Below are positions 3,632 through 10,037 of a stretch of DNA of 25,947 nt, piece after piece. The notes beneath the pieces were generated by a model. It did not search any database. It saw only the letters and a list, made by a program, of their open reading frames with translations, and was not told the origin of the DNA. Source of the stretch: a virus; IMG/VR virus record IMGVR_UViG_3300025110_000113, positions 1-25,947 of that record, one strand, 5' to 3'. How positions within the stretch are numbered: position 1 is the stretch's first letter; the number at the start of each line of letters is the position of its first letter. Made by a program: the position numbers and the translations under genes.

Positions 3632-3996
3632 AGAACTGGTTAAATTCAATCAACTTCACAAAGGAGAATATTCTAGATGAAGATCCTACAGAAAAGTATC
3701 CAGCATTTGTTGTGAACAAATGTTTGTCTGGTTCTTTGGATTCTGTATTGTTTGCAAATGAGATGAACAAGTCTCATTTTCTTGATCCTAAACTTCAGTA
3801 TGATTTTCTTTTAAATTCTTTAAGGAAGAAGAAACGATTTGCTCCTTGGTTAAAGAAGGGTAAGGTAGAGGATATCGATGCGGTTAAGAAGTACTATGGG
3901 TATAGTAATGAGAAAGCACAACAGGCATTGAGGATTCTTACAAAGGATCAGATTGAATATATTAAAGGTAAACTTAATACTGGAGGAATGATGTGA
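3625..3996 (+). CDS. 62: Clamp-loader small subunit gp62
   Basis: A 123-aa protein that fits the cyanophage form of gp62, the non-ATPase subunit that anchors the gp44 ring (T4 gp62 has 187 residues). Recognisable stretches are FVVNKCLSGSLDSVLFANEMN near the start and a basic centre, LRKKKRFAPWLKKG, followed by a helical tail. The first of these recurs in gp62 homologues. A GGAGG Shine-Dalgarno lies about 6 bases before the ATG. Unlike T4, where 62 directly follows 44, here three accessory genes (about 2.7 kb) intervene. It overlaps the next gene by 4 bases (GTGA). The assignment rests on local similarity plus operon position, because the family evolves quickly. Confidence 0.75.
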   Translation: MLKNWLNSINFTKENILDEDPTEKYPAFVVNKCLSGSLDSVLFANEMNKSHFLDPKLQYDFLLNSLRKKKRFAPWLKKGKVEDIDAVKKYYGYSNEKAQQALRILTKDQIEYIKGKLNTGGMM

Positions 3997-5232: not shown

Positions 5233-5930
5233 AGAAGTTTATTTTTGATGTCGATGGGACTTTGACACCTGCTAGAAAAACTATAGAACCTGAGTTCTTA
5301 CATTTCTTTTATGAGTTTTCTACTTGTAATGATGTGTACTTAGTTACTGGTAGTGATAGAGAGAAGACCATAGAACAGGTAACACCTGGAATATACAACA
5401 ATGCTAAGAGAGTTTATAACTGCTCTGGTTCTGATGTGTATGAGAAGGATATTAATATCTATAGAGACGACTGGGAGTTGCCTAGGGATGTAGAGAATCA
5501 TTTAGAGAATGAATTACTCTTTAGTAAATTCCCTGTTCGTAATGGTAATCATATTGAGAGAAGGCCAGGTGGTGTTAACTTTAGCATTTTAGGTAGAGGT
5601 CTTACATGTTTTGTCGAGAGAGAAGAGTATGTTAAGTGGGATAAGGAAACTGGTGAACGAAAAGAAATTGCCAGAAGACTTAAGATGAAGTTTCCAGATC
5701 TTGAAGTTAATATAGGAGGACAGACTGGTTTAGATCTAGGAGCACCAGGAAGTAATAAGAGTCAGATTCTAAGAGATTTTAAATTGGGTGATGAGTTGCA
5801 TTTCTTTGGTGATATGATGGAAGAGGGTCAAAATGATTATGCTTTAGCGAAAGCAGTACAAGATGTGGGCGGTTCTTCCCACTGTGTTAATGGGTGGAAA
5901 GATACTATGATGTTACTAAATAAAGTGTAG
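5229..5930 (+). CDS. Eukaryotic-type phosphomannomutase-like HAD hydrolase, apparent CTG start
   Basis: A 233-aa HAD-superfamily protein that reads like eukaryotic phosphomannomutase (PMM2 type), which interconverts mannose-6- and mannose-1-phosphate. HAD motif I, FDVDGTLTPAR, has nucleophile D7 and acid/base D9. Later come the cap-domain block RRPGGVNFSILGR, IGGQTGLDLGAPG and the metal-site FFGDMMEEGQNDYA, all in PMM order. No ATG, GTG or TTG precedes motif I. The CTG at 5229 follows GGAGGAA (5217-5223) by 5 bases and overlaps the regA stop as CTGA. The first conventional start, TTG at 5262, would remove both catalytic aspartates. The true reaction could be mutase or plain phosphatase. Confidence 0.8.
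   Translation: MKKFIFDVDGTLTPARKTIEPEFLHFFYEFSTCNDVYLVTGSDREKTIEQVTPGIYNNAKRVYNCSGSDVYEKDINIYRDDWELPRDVENHLENELLFSKFPVRNGNHIERRPGGVNFSILGRGLTCFVEREEYVKWDKETGERKEIARRLKMKFPDLEVNIGGQTGLDLGAPGSNKSQILRDFKLGDELHFFGDMMEEGQNDYALAKAVQDVGGSSHCVNGWKDTMMLLNKV
5915..5922 (+). promoter_or_regulatory. Possible late-type promoter box (ACTAAATA) before hsp20
   Basis: ACTAAATA sits inside the last codons of the HAD gene, 58 bases before the hsp20 ATG. It differs at two positions from the T4 late box TATAAATA. It could give hsp20 its own late transcription. Chance occurrence is not excluded. Confidence 0.25.
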
Positions 5931-5979: not shown

Positions 5980-6408
5980 ATGTCTAACATACAAAGATTT
6001 CATGCTGAAAGCTTGCCTGATCTTATGGATAAGATCACCAAGAATAGCATAGGACTCGACAATTATTTTGATAGATTCTTCGATCTACAAACACAATCAA
6101 ATTACCCACCATACAATCTCATTCAAGTAAACAATACTGAATCTAGATTAGAGATTGCTCTAGCAGGATTCAAAAAGGATGAGGTTAAAGTCTACACAGA
6201 GTATGGTAAATTAATTGTAGAAGGTCACAAGGAAGAGAAGAAAGAGGAAAACTATACCCATAGAGGACTTGCACAAAGATCCTTTGATAGGTCATGGACT
6301 ATCGCTGATGAAACAGTAGTCAAAGAAGTCTTGTTTGAAGACGGATTACTAACTGTCACACTTGGTAAGATCATACCAGATCATCACGCTCGTAAAGACT
6401 GGATCTAA
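5980..6408 (+). CDS. hsp20: Small heat-shock protein Hsp20 (IbpA-like)
   Basis: ATP-independent chaperone that holds unfolding proteins, found widely in T4-like cyanophages. The 142-aa protein has a short N-terminal arm with FDRFFD, then the alpha-crystallin domain from about residue 45: YPPYNLIQ, LEIALAGFKKDEVKV, GKLIVEGHKEEKK, RSFDRSWTI and EDGLLTVTL. These are the expected beta-strand blocks. The usual C-terminal IxI-type motif is represented only loosely by GKIIPDH. Start 5980 is preceded by an excellent AAAGGAGG 6 bases upstream. It ends just before a rho-independent terminator, so it is the last gene of its transcription unit. It may help fold replication or virion proteins. Confidence 0.95.
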   Translation: MSNIQRFHAESLPDLMDKITKNSIGLDNYFDRFFDLQTQSNYPPYNLIQVNNTESRLEIALAGFKKDEVKVYTEYGKLIVEGHKEEKKEENYTHRGLAQRSFDRSWTIADETVVKEVLFEDGLLTVTLGKIIPDHHARKDWI

Positions 6409-6411
6409 CAC

Positions 6412-6437
6412 AAGGGGGTTTACATACCCCCTTTTTT
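6412..6437 (+). terminator. Rho-independent terminator after hsp20
   Basis: AAGGGGG (6412-6418) pairs with CCCCCTT (6427-6433) around an 8-base loop, and the T-run extends through 6437. It lies 4 bases after the hsp20 stop codon. The loop contains the -35 hexamer of the next promoter. Confidence 0.85.
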
Positions 6438-6447
6438 AATGTATAAT
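6419..6447 (+). promoter_or_regulatory. Consensus sigma-70 promoter
   Basis: TTTACA at 6419-6424 (one mismatch to TTGACA) and a perfect TATAAT at 6442-6447 are separated by exactly 17 bases. Transcription would start near 6454, which is where the first hairpin of the downstream structured region begins. It is the strongest host-type (early) promoter I see in the window. It would drive the structured RNA and probably the Sm-like and gp43 genes beyond. Confidence 0.8.
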
Positions 6448-6453
6448 ATCTTT

Positions 6454-6660
6454 GTTAGGTTGATCGCCTAACACGGGAGTGACTGAATAAACTTGCTGGC
6501 ATAAGGCTAGTTAAGGTGATGTGTCAGAGGTGGTGCTCGCTAGAGGAGTCTCTAGAATCGACTTACCAGTCGGGACATATACAGTGCGGTAAAAATCTAC
6601 TCAATGTAGCAATGCCCCTCACTTGTTGGTAAACATGAACCCAACCTCCCACCCTAAATA
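6454..6660 (+). ncRNA. Candidate structured non-coding RNA or long 5' leader
   Basis: About 200 nt with no convincing gene, starting where the consensus promoter predicts +1. Perfect local stems: GTTAGG/CCTAAC (6454-6459 with 6467-6472), CTAGAG/CTCTAG around GAGT (6540-6555), CGACT/AGTCG around TACC (6559-6572), CTAC/GTAG (6597-6600 with 6606-6609) and GTTGG/CCAAC (6625-6629 with 6641-6645). AACT/AGTT at 6490-6512 forms an imperfect stem. GGGAG (6475-6479) can pair with CTCCC (6646-6650), closing a multibranched fold. No terminator precedes 6673, so it may be the leader of the Sm-like/gp43 operon, or a processed RNA. I do not recognise a known riboswitch, tRNA, tmRNA, 6S or RNase P RNA. A 37-codon ORF at 6519-6632 is inside but looks fortuitous. 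Confidence 0.5.
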
Positions 6661-6672
6661 TTCTAAAAAAAG

Positions 6673-6981
6673 ATGTCTATTAAAGTCACTATATTAAACG
6701 ATGGCACACAACTTCTTTGTGATTTAAAAGAAGTTGTTGATCCAAGTGATAGAGGAACACAGTATCTTGTTACTAAACCTTTTGAGATAGTTTATACACC
6801 AGAGGTTAGGCTTAAAGAAGAGAATGCTGGTACTGAATCACAAGTCAATAAAGTAGGACTTAAGAGTTGGATGGATATCTCTGAAGACAGTACTTACATA
6901 ATTAATCCAGCAACGGTTACTACAATTTGTGACCCAGTTAACGATTTAAAATTAATGTATCAGGAGTTGACCAATGGTTAA
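6673..6981 (+). CDS. Sm-like (LSm-type) small protein, copy 1
   Basis: A 102-aa protein that fits the Sm-like family known from marine cyanophages, whose members form RNA-binding rings. The pattern is an N-terminal strand pair, IKVTILNDGTQLLCDLKEV, then YLVTKPFEIVY, a charged linker, LKSWMDIS and a strand ending INPATVTTICDP. The tail LKLMYQEL follows the final strand. The next gene shares this layout, so the two are tandem paralogues. The ATG has no Shine-Dalgarno, only an A-rich run, and follows the structured region by about 12 bases. It overlaps copy 2 by 8 bases. The role is unknown; binding phage or host RNA is inferred from the family. Confidence 0.55.
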   Translation: MSIKVTILNDGTQLLCDLKEVVDPSDRGTQYLVTKPFEIVYTPEVRLKEENAGTESQVNKVGLKSWMDISEDSTYIINPATVTTICDPVNDLKLMYQELTNG

Positions 6982-7249
6982 GGTTCTTGTTTTAAAAATG
7001 GATTCTAAAGTATTAGTTTCTAAGATTAGAGAAGTAGGTGCTGAAGTTGGTGAACCAGATTGTGAGTTAACTGACCCTGTTGAGTTTAGACTTGAGGAGG
7101 GTAAGGATTGGAAAGAAAGATTACAGAGGTGGCCAGGTAAAGGAGTGACACACCAACATAAGTGTATGATCTCATCCGATGCTATACTAACTGTAGTTGA
7201 CCCAGAACCTCAGCTTTTAAAAGCATACGAGGAACTTATATCTGAATGA
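6974..7249 (+). CDS. Sm-like (LSm-type) small protein, copy 2
   Basis: A 91-aa protein with the same architecture as the upstream gene: VKVLVLKMDSKVLVSKIREV, then CELTDPVEFRL, a linker with WKERLQRWPGKG, and the closing strand MISSDAILTVVDPEP, followed by LLKAYEEL. The conserved end (strand, DP, then a Tyr-Glu-Glu/Gln-Leu helix) links the two copies. It lacks some glycine/acid positions seen in copy 1, so they have diverged and may form a mixed ring. An AGGAG lies 7 bases before the ATG at 6974. It overlaps gp43 by 4 bases (ATGA), so its translation is probably coupled to that of the polymerase. Confidence 0.5.
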   Translation: MVKVLVLKMDSKVLVSKIREVGAEVGEPDCELTDPVEFRLEEGKDWKERLQRWPGKGVTHQHKCMISSDAILTVVDPEPQLLKAYEELISE

Positions 7250-9723
7250 AGTTTTACACAAATGTAGTTATGATCGGGGATAACTTTCTCGTTCGTGGTT
7301 ACGACAAAGGAGAGTACTTCCAAGTTAGAGAGAAGTACTCTCCTACTTTGTTTGTACCTGCAAAGAAAAAAACTAATTATAAAACTCTTGAAGGTAAGTA
7401 TGTTGAGAAGATTAAACCAGGTACTGTTAGAGAGTCAAGAGAGTTTATAAAGCAGTATGAGTTTGTAGATAATTTTCCTATCTATGGTCAGGATAGATTC
7501 ATTTATCAGTACATTGCTGATAGTTATCCTGAGGATGAGATTAAGTTTGATATAAGTAAGATCCGTTTATACACTATTGATATTGAGACTAGATCTGAGA
7601 ATGGATTCCCTGATGTGGAATCTGCTGACCAAGAGATCTTATTGATCTCTATACAAGATTATAATACTAAAGAGATTACAACATGGGGTATAGGATCATT
7701 TAAAAATAAGCAAGAGAATGTTCGTTACATACAGTTTAATAATGAGCATGATCTTCTGAGTAGTTTTATTCAGTGGTGGATCGATAATACTCCAGACATT
7801 GTGACTGGATGGAACATTCAACTGTTTGATATACCATATATTGCAAAGCGTATTGAAAGGGTTCTTGGTACTAAATTGATGAGGAGATTATCCCCTTGGG
7901 GATTATGCTCTCCTAAGGAGATCTATATTAAAGGTCGTAGGTATCAGACATATGATGTGGGTGGTATAACTCAGTTAGATTATCTTGATTTGTATAAGAA
8001 GTTTACCTATACAAACCAAGAGTCATATCGATTGGATTATATTGCACAGGTAGAACTTGGTCAGAAGAAATTAGATCACTCTGAATTCGACACATTTAAA
8101 GATTTCTACACAAATGGCTGGCAAAAATTTGTAGAGTATAATATAATTGATGTGGAACTTGTTGACCGTCTGGAAGACAAGATGAAACTCATTGAGTTGG
8201 CATTGACTATGGCATATGATGCTAAGGTCAATTACGCAGATGTGTTTTATCAAGTCCGAATGTGGGACAACATTATATACAACTATCTTAAAAAGCGGAA
8301 CATCGTCATCCCACCGAAGGAGAGATCCGACAAGGATGAAAAGTACGCAGGAGCTTATGTCAAGGAACCGAAACCAGGACGCTATGATTGGGTGGTCAGT
8401 TTTGACCTTAATAGCCTGTACCCTCATCTTATTATGCAGTACAATATCTCACCAGAGACCCTCAGGGAGACTAGATGTGCCAGTGCGAGCGTTGAGAGGA
8501 TCTTAAATCAGGAGACTGAGGTAGATAGTCAGTATGCTACTTGTGCTAATGGAGCACAGTATACTAAGAAGATTCGTGGGTTCTTACCTGAACTCATGGA
8601 GAAGATGTACAACGAGCGTGTGATCTTTAAGAAGAGGATGATCGATGCCAAGAAGAAATATGAGAAGACACCCACGCCTGATCTTGTCAAAGAGATTGCC
8701 AGGTGTAACAACATCCAAATGGCAAAGAAGATATCTCTTAATTCTGCTTATGGTGCTATCGGCAATCAGTACTTCAGGTATTATAAACTAGCAAATGCTG
8801 AAGCGATTACTCTATCAGGTCAGGTTAGTATCCGTTGGATAGAGAATAAGATGAATGGATATATCAATAAGATCTTAGGTACTGAGGAAGTTGATTATGT
8901 TATTGCATCTGATACTGATAGTATCTACCTTAATCTTGGTCCTCTAGTTGAGAAGTTTTTCCCAAATAGTGACAAGACAGTTCAACTATTGGATAAGATA
9001 TGTGAGGAGAAGTTTGAACCTTTCATAGATCAGTCCTATAAGGAACTAGCAGACTATGTTAGTGCTTATGACCAAAAGATGTTTATGAAGCGAGAGAACA
9101 TCGCAGAGAGGGGTATATGGACTGCTAAGAAGCGATACATCCTGAATGTATGGAATAGTGAAGGAGTCCAATACAATGAGCCTAAGTTGAAGATGATGGG
9201 TATAGAGGCAGTTAAATCTTCTACACCTGCACCTTGTCGTACTATGATTAAGGATGCTCTTAAACTTATGATGAATGGTACAGAGGATGAGGTTATTGAT
9301 TTTATCGATGCTAGTCGTAAGAAATTCAGGAATCTCCCACCTGAGGAAATTGCATTCCCTAGGTCAGTTTCTGATGTCACTAAATATAAATCGGCAAGCA
9401 TGATTTATACCAAAGGCACACCGATACATGTTCGGGGTGCTTTACTGTTTAACCATTACATCAAGGAGAAAAAGTTGACGAACAAGTATTCGTTAATAAG
9501 CAATGGTGAGAAGATTAAATTCTGCTACCTTAAAAAACCAAACAAGATACATGAGAATGTTATCTCGTTTATACAAGACTTCCCCAAAGAGTTAGGAATC
9601 GATCAGTATATCGATCATGACTTACAATTTAATAAGAGTTTTCTTGAACCTCTAAGGATCATACTAGACTCTATTGGATGGGAAGTGGAACGAACTGCAA
9701 ACCTAGAGGCTTTCTTTATCTAA
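7246..9723 (+). CDS. 43: Family B DNA polymerase gp43
   Basis: Replicative DNA polymerase with 3'-5' proofreading. Exonuclease motifs: YTIDIETRSE with D112/E114 (the same numbers as in T4), NIQLFDIPYIAKR, and YNIIDVELVDRL. Polymerase motifs: A, FDLNSLYPHLIMQYN with D387; B, KKISLNSAYGAIGNQYF; C, ASDTDSIYL with D556 and D558. The C-terminus, LEAFFI, resembles the clamp-binding peptide at the end of T4 gp43. At 825 aa it is about 70 shorter than T4 gp43 (898), much of the difference lying between motifs A and C. The gene is intact, with no intron or split. The stretch around 8240-8480 has more C/G-ended codons than its flanks. Confidence 0.98.
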   Translation: MKFYTNVVMIGDNFLVRGYDKGEYFQVREKYSPTLFVPAKKKTNYKTLEGKYVEKIKPGTVRESREFIKQYEFVDNFPIYGQDRFIYQYIADSYPEDEIKFDISKIRLYTIDIETRSENGFPDVESADQEILLISIQDYNTKEITTWGIGSFKNKQENVRYIQFNNEHDLLSSFIQWWIDNTPDIVTGWNIQLFDIPYIAKRIERVLGTKLMRRLSPWGLCSPKEIYIKGRRYQTYDVGGITQLDYLDLYKKFTYTNQESYRLDYIAQVELGQKKLDHSEFDTFKDFYTNGWQKFVEYNIIDVELVDRLEDKMKLIELALTMAYDAKVNYADVFYQVRMWDNIIYNYLKKRNIVIPPKERSDKDEKYAGAYVKEPKPGRYDWVVSFDLNSLYPHLIMQYNISPETLRETRCASASVERILNQETEVDSQYATCANGAQYTKKIRGFLPELMEKMYNERVIFKKRMIDAKKKYEKTPTPDLVKEIARCNNIQMAKKISLNSAYGAIGNQYFRYYKLANAEAITLSGQVSIRWIENKMNGYINKILGTEEVDYVIASDTDSIYLNLGPLVEKFFPNSDKTVQLLDKICEEKFEPFIDQSYKELADYVSAYDQKMFMKRENIAERGIWTAKKRYILNVWNSEGVQYNEPKLKMMGIEAVKSSTPAPCRTMIKDALKLMMNGTEDEVIDFIDASRKKFRNLPPEEIAFPRSVSDVTKYKSASMIYTKGTPIHVRGALLFNHYIKEKKLTNKYSLISNGEKIKFCYLKKPNKIHENVISFIQDFPKELGIDQYIDHDLQFNKSFLEPLRIILDSIGWEVERTANLEAFFI

Positions 9724-9873
9724 ATGGAATTACCTATTACAGACAACGATTTAAACACTATTGTCAGAGCATTGTCTCTGGGTGGTGACACTAGACTTTA
9801 TTTCCTATTAAAGCAGGTCAAAGAATCTAGAGAAGGAAACAATGGACAGGAGTTACTTAGGGAGGTAGTATGA
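9724..9873 (+). CDS. Small conserved-looking ORF between gp43 and psbN, unknown
   Basis: A 49-aa protein whose ATG follows the gp43 stop with no gap and whose TGA overlaps the psbN ATG (ATGA). It reads ITDNDLNTIVRALSLGGDTRLYFLL followed by a charged tail ending LLREVV. It looks soluble and mostly helical, with no membrane segment. I do not recognise a function. The exact fit between two genes and the psbN Shine-Dalgarno (GGGAGG) in its last codons support real translation. Confidence 0.6.
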   Translation: MELPITDNDLNTIVRALSLGGDTRLYFLLKQVKESREGNNGQELLREVV

Positions 9874-10037
9874 TATTAGTATTCATTATAGTAGGATTAT
9901 TATTCTTTGTTATGGGGTATGGTATTTACCTTACCTTTGGACCAGGTAAAACAGAATTGCGTGACCCTATTGACGAACATGCTAAAATGCATGAACTAGG
10001 AATAGCCCACGGACACACACCAAAACGAAACAATTAA
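9870..10037 (+). CDS. psbN: PsbN-like photosystem II assembly protein
   Basis: A 55-aa membrane protein. Residues 2-20 are a hydrophobic helix, followed by GYGIYLTFGPGKTELRDP and IDEH, which matches the PsbN signature (GY-IY--FGP--L-DP--EH). In cyanobacteria PsbN sits in the thylakoid membrane and helps assemble or repair photosystem II. Most PsbN proteins end soon after the DP--EH block at 43-45 residues. This one has about 17 extra residues rich in His and Lys. GGGAGG lies 4-5 bases before the ATG. It is coupled to the 49-aa ORF upstream and followed by uvsX after 2 bases. As an auxiliary metabolic gene it indicates an oxygenic cyanobacterial host. Confidence 0.85.
   Translation: MILVFIIVGLLFFVMGYGIYLTFGPGKTELRDPIDEHAKMHELGIAHGHTPKRNN

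Follow-up and report, generated by a model that had tools for sequence, protein, structure and literature searches.

The manA class of structured RNA was reported in 2010 in cyanophages as a cis-regulatory riboswitch candidate lying near hsp20 (ibpA) and near nucleotide, sugar and photosynthesis genes (Weinberg et al. 2010, PMC2864571). The label of a cis-regulatory element or 5' UTR has since been repeated (PMC9964418, PMC10665884, PMC7657543). The structure of manA as such is already known: 48 significant base pairs are given in the Rfam 14 paper (PMC7779021), and the figure legend of the 2010 report marks a "pseudoknot?" (PMC2864571). The wcaG, PhotoRC-II and glnA RNAs are also structured RNAs of such cyanophages and belong to different families (PMC2864571, PMC9964418). 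PhotoRC-II lies beside psbA in P-SSM7, whereas manA is not bound to one gene. In our set, two other Rfam elements were seen near manA: PhotoRC-II before psbA in P-SSM7 (L003:1569–1659), and a Glutamine-II riboswitch just above the cut-off in P-RSM6 (L004:3053–3105). Phage tRNA genes offer another comparison. Like them, manA is single-copy, has an early-type promoter and in several phages abuts tRNA genes end to end; unlike them, it has no tRNA or tmRNA fold.

Here we describe a manA RNA in a stretch of viral DNA of 25,947 nucleotides (positions 1 to 25,947 of the IMG/VR virus record IMGVR_UViG_3300025110_000113), called the window below, and compare it with about 130 manA relatives from cyanophage isolates, single-cell viruses and IMG/VR, in which genes were called mechanically. 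The features of the locus are collected in Table 1.

Table 1. Features of the manA locus in the window
Feature	Position	Strand	Remarks
hsp20, gene upstream of the RNA	5980–6408	+
Intrinsic terminator of hsp20, AAGGGGGTTTACATACCCCCTT and T run	6412–6438	+	-14 kcal/mol, z -3.3
Sigma-70 type promoter, TTTACA-17-TATAAT	6419–6447	+	11/12 consensus matches
manA RNA (RF01745), full length	6453–6655	+	Rfam match, covariation
5' terminal hairpin, 6453–6458 with 6468–6473	6453–6473	+	Helix 1; both-side changes in all 6 pairs
Closing helix, 6475–6479 with 6646–6650	6475–6650	+	Helix 2; 100% paired, one compensatory pair
Multi-branch domain, 6520–6525 with 6574–6579	6520–6579	+	Helices 5, 6, 8, 9
Hairpins of the multi-branch domain	6527–6529/6536–6538; 6540–6545/6550–6555; 6558–6562/6569–6573	+	Rfam model, covariation
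Possible loop-loop pseudoknot, UGGU 6531–6534 with ACCA 6565–6568	6531–6568	+	Helix 7
Helix 6583–6589/6617–6623 and 3' hairpin 6625–6629/6641–6645	6583–6645	+	Among helices 10, 12, 13
Pseudoknot, AUGU with ACAU in the 3' hairpin loop	6604–6607 with 6633–6636	+	Covaries
Sm-like protein 1 (phrog_431 / DUF6561), first gene after the RNA	6673–6981	+	Pfam Sm_like match below its cut-off
Sm-like protein 2 (phrog_483 / DUF6561)	6974–7249	+
gp43 DNA polymerase	7246–9723	+

The manA RNA of the window and its fold

Searching the window against Rfam 15 with cmscan returned a single match, the manA RNA (RF01745), with 164 bits and an E value of 4e-44. The match spans model positions 1–192 of 192, so that the score exceeds the curated cut-off of 55.2 bits over the entire model, and the helices are backed by covariation with relatives. 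The feature is the manA RNA, and this identity is practically certain. The window RNA resembles the manA of 2010 in its full-length match, its conserved blocks and helices and its T4-like cyanophage (PMC2864571). Like copies described there it lies near hsp20, and it differs from that description in standing after hsp20 and before the Sm-like genes and gp43. An earlier note, made from the letters of the window alone, had proposed that the phage encodes a structured RNA, with a promoter for it, 5' of two Sm-like genes and gp43, and this is borne out. The same note matched the RNA to no known class, which the Rfam search that it had itself suggested refutes. As for a conserved protein in its place, no open reading frame of at least 40 aa occurs within 6454–6672 on either strand. 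A pattern scan of 84,980 bacterial genomes gave four true matches, in MAGs and one Prochlorococcus single cell, one of them truncated by a contig end. We presume all four to be phage contigs and claim no host copy. This exact-pattern scan did not return, as such, the two gamma-proteobacterial copies reported in 2010.

The earlier note had also suggested comparing the folding energy with that of shuffled sequences. This comparison is unimpressive alone (-60.9 kcal/mol, z -1.74, with 13 of 200 shuffles equally good), and single-sequence folding was set aside as too weak a proof of structure; therefore, covariation was tested. In an alignment of 21 RNAs from the window, cyanophage isolates and marine single-cell viruses, 34 of the 55 pairs show compensatory changes, supporting the Rfam structure. 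When the pairing partners were slid by 1–3 columns, pairing fell from 90% to 34–48%. Our own covariance model, built from these 21 RNAs, was run on 120 IMG/VR stretches fetched by the core pattern GGGAGTGACTGAATAA and recognised manA in all 120 (15 are cut by a contig end), which is an identity check and not independent evidence, since the pattern belongs to the RNA. The larger alignment has 101 sequences, 99 of them distinct, and 63 pairs including two proposed pseudoknots; 95.4% of its pair cells are paired and 41 pairs have changed on both sides, compared with 34–45% pairing in the slid controls. The covariation that the note had asked about is thus overwhelming on 101 relatives. It includes the closing helix which the note had picked out in its hairpin-rich stretch and which coincides exactly with the outer helix in the Rfam model of manA. 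This helix is paired in all 99 distinct sequences, with a compensatory change from A-U to U-A in two (P-HM1 and MED4-213).

The 5' terminal hairpin coincides with the predicted 5' end of the transcript. Within the multi-branch domain, UGGU and ACCA are complementary in nearly all sequences yet almost invariant, and their loop-loop pseudoknot is a possible one. The pseudoknot with the 3' hairpin loop occurs as CUGU/ACAG (77 sequences), AUGU/ACAU (14) and GAGU/ACUC (1). Covariation shows the predicted fold of this RNA of about 200 nt to be a compact domain with at least one pseudoknot.

Promoter geometry and 3' ends

In the window, the terminator of hsp20 and the promoter of the RNA form a composite. 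The hairpin at 6412–6433 carries TTTACA, the -35 box, in its loop, and is followed by the T run and then by TATAAT. This -10 box ends 5 nt before the RNA, which would place the transcript start at about 6453–6455. Taken alone, the promoter is weak: a larger scan gave three sites with 11 of 12 matches, this one included, and as many sites overall as in shuffled sequences. It becomes significant because it is conserved across relatives, and so the near-consensus promoter that the earlier note placed at the foot of the RNA stands.

The upstream sequence was long enough for a survey of TTGACA/TATAAT-type promoters, called mechanically, at 126 loci. It turned out that 122 of them have, upstream of manA, a promoter that matches the consensus at 10 or more of 12 positions, and that in 102 exactly 5 nt separate the end of the -10 box from the first base pair of the RNA. 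Promoters with 11 or 12 matches were found in 116 of 126 loci, but in 7 of 2520 shuffles and at 10 of 2236 randomly chosen places. After removal of near-copies, 98 of 102 loci retain at least 10 matches and 82 of 102 the exact 5-nt spacing. In 51 of 125 loci, the intrinsic terminator hairpin of the gene before manA contains the -35 box, as it does in the window. The same terminator/promoter composite occurs in the gap after hsp20 in S-SM2, S-RSM4 and ACG-2014e, which have no manA. The exceptions to the promoter rule include two loci (L135, L083) where a tRNA or tRNA-like sequence replaces the promoter directly before the RNA; a tRNA also directly precedes the RNA in two loci where manA is cut by a contig end (L033, L082). 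Thus, its own promoter at the 5' end, a mark of a stand-alone RNA gene, is present across the relatives and in the window. In the papers open to search, we found no prior description of this geometry or of manA relocation. The 5-nt promoter geometry, with the -35 box often in a terminator, and the behaviour of manA as a single-copy relocating cassette appear to be new here, although priority is not certain.

A fixed place where the transcript begins and a hairpin right at its 5' end would also suit a ligand-free leader that acts as a stable knob on early mRNAs, slows their decay and raises their yield. Varied genes could profit from it, and it would work wherever a strong promoter exists. We regard this as improbable. 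The highly conserved unpaired sequence and the pseudoknot exceed the needs of a stabiliser, manA is present as a single copy per genome, and there are copies closed by their own terminator.

The 3' side is less uniform. An intrinsic terminator lies within 130 nt after manA in 31 of 129 loci, compared with 9 of 258 shuffles. In 28 loci, a hairpin which we call the GACC hairpin (GACCUAAGAUGCAACUC-loop-GAGUCGGGCAGAUGGUC), frequently with a U run, stands 4–12 nt after manA. It precedes at least six gene families (for example at L068, L075, L123 and L130), all 28 of its occurrences in 1.23 Mb adjoin manA, and an Rfam search with it gave no match. The GACC hairpin is probably manA's own terminator or 3' module. 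ARAGORN found tRNAs 0–13 nt from manA in 11 loci, 8 downstream and 3 directly upstream. Gly tRNA-like sequences follow manA in four further loci, one abutting it and three behind the GACC hairpin, and one precedes it in one further locus. A terminator or GACC hairpin follows manA in 45 of 129 loci, and a downstream tRNA adds 9 (54 of 129).

The other 75 of 129 loci, including the window, have no terminator, GACC hairpin or downstream tRNA between the RNA and the next gene, which speaks against a stand-alone RNA. In the window, 17 nt separate the RNA from the Sm-like ATG at 6673. Because no terminator was found before this ATG, the window RNA would also lead the Sm-like/gp43 transcript. An RNA that begins at the transcript start and runs on in this way is what is expected of a cis-acting leader, a riboswitch or similar, which would control the following gene or operon, here the Sm-like/gp43 replication genes. 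Even the copies with a terminator before the gene fit such a leader, since the terminator is conceivable as an expression platform.

Neighbouring genes, copy number and relocation

The leader reading also draws on the neighbours of manA. Among the genes before manA in isolates are regA, gp23, pstS, pebS and a ferredoxin gene; those after it include talC, gp32 and a purL/purS-like gene. Across the wider set the same few downstream families recur: gp32 (23), thyX (16), talC (15–17), Sm-like (12), hsp20 (5), phosphomannomutase pmm (5), purL/purS-like (4) and phrog_1462 (4). Most downstream genes are on the same strand as manA, as a leader would need, and this too counts against a stand-alone RNA. 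A lone opposite-strand gene after manA in P-TIM68 was set aside as evidence, as its annotation may be wrong. The distance from manA to the start codon ranges from 8 to 441 nt with no conserved spacing, contrary to what a leader would suggest. On a tree of the RNAs, which is weakly supported (13 of 96 inner branches starred), the downstream-gene label changes 34 times compared with 43 when shuffled, and the upstream label 43 times compared with 55; therefore, manA is no more tied to the following gene than to the preceding one. The clustering of downstream genes on this tree is real but weak, and we do not claim a random position.

Two other genes of the window were noted. A eukaryotic-type phosphomannomutase (PF03332), relatives of which directly follow manA in other phages, lies at 5262–5930 between regA and hsp20. 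At 9870–10037, between gp43 and uvsX, an open reading frame of 55 aa matches Pfam PsbN (35 bits, cut-off 25). It could be a real photosystem-like peptide or merely a similar membrane helix.

The two genes following the window RNA had been read as tandem Sm-like RNA-binding genes, and it is the Sm-like fold that is upheld here. Profiles of both proteins match 3BY7, described as "structurally similar to Sm/LSm-like". Their AlphaFold models have pLDDT of 81 and 87, and Foldseek with both models gave 3BY7 as the best match, with Lsm/Sm proteins below it. On these models, the genes at 6673 and 6974 are predicted to be Sm-like in fold. A candidate late promoter for them, CTAAATA at 6654–6660, was rejected: the motif occurs 7 times in the window with 7.8 expected by chance, and relatives often have AATATT behind the RNA. 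The predicted fold is also what speaks for the idea of the earlier note that the RNA has dedicated Sm-like partner proteins encoded alongside it. We consider this very improbable. In four complete genomes (S-SM2, S-RSM4, ACG-2014e and S-CAM9), hsp20, the pair of small genes and gp43 keep their order, and none of these genomes contains a manA match that exceeds the cut-off. Sm-like genes directly follow 12 of 130 manA copies, and most copies are elsewhere. The presence of the two is not coupled, and a partnership is not supported.

The number of copies also bears on the leader reading. All 16 complete isolate genomes that have manA contain exactly one copy, at varying positions, and 24 of 25 further records have a single one. 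The exception, L101, which is the only record seen with two copies and which counts against a stand-alone RNA, has manA at 116–315 and 3636–3836, 3.5 kb apart, before thyX and gp32. One copy per genome, instead of one per target, is unexpected for a leader.

P-HM1 and P-HM2, which NCBI files under the same Eurybiavirus taxon, provide a direct comparison. In P-HM1, as in MED4-213, manA lies between gp23 and the next gene as a promoter, the RNA and its own terminator (AACCTCG...CGAGGTTTTTT), and the next gene has its own CACTAAATA late-type promoter and a ribosome-binding site. At this junction P-HM2 keeps the flanks and has the gp23 terminator and the late-type promoter only, with no manA. In P-HM2 the single manA separates pebS from gp32 and immediately follows a TTGTCA-TATAAT promoter; P-HM1 has the same gp32 promoter without the RNA. 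These junctions indicate that manA moves while the flanking genes and signals stay. The comparison of genomes suggests that manA is in most cases one self-contained RNA gene which can change place, and not a switch tied to its neighbours. For a leader, the target would differ between close relatives and the former target would keep its promoter without the RNA; in several phages, moreover, tRNAs, or a terminator and a separate late-type promoter, stand between the RNA and the gene. The judgement of manA as cis-regulatory by Weinberg et al. 2010 and its filing as such in Rfam (PMC2864571) favour a leader. On balance, we consider a cis-acting leader possible but rather unlikely.

A proposed stand-alone RNA gene of cyanophages

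Single copy, self-contained signals and free position fit best with a stand-alone RNA acting in trans. We slightly favour the reading that manA is transcribed early as a discrete non-coding RNA, acts in trans and forms a relocatable single-copy cassette, the window copy serving also as a leader. For T4-like cyanophages in general, we give about an even chance that manA is a trans-acting, early, single-copy non-coding RNA gene whose cassette lands exactly at the start site of existing promoters. Host RNA polymerase with a sigma-70 factor would initiate at the promoter that overlaps the hsp20 terminator, and, given the fixed promoter distance, the transcript would begin at the 5' hairpin of the RNA. 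The cassette would combine the RNA with a promoter, or with a start site already in place, and in many cases with a terminator of its own, and the discrete RNA, presumably made early, may act in trans on phage or host machinery. In the window, the same transcript would run into the Sm-like/gp43 genes, so that the RNA would serve as their 5' leader as well and might be cleaved off afterwards. RNA gene and leader could both be right if a longer transcript is processed to release the RNA.

Since 2010, manA has been filed as cis-regulatory with neither a ligand nor a target known. Should it indeed be a stand-alone RNA present once per phage, its role would no longer be sought through switch assays on the genes behind it but through discrete transcripts, the partners that bind it and the phenotypes of deletion mutants. 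P-HM1, P-HM2 and MED4-213 share the host Prochlorococcus MED4 and differ in the site of manA, which makes the stand-alone view directly testable. If this view is true, the role of manA would lie in taking over or managing the host.
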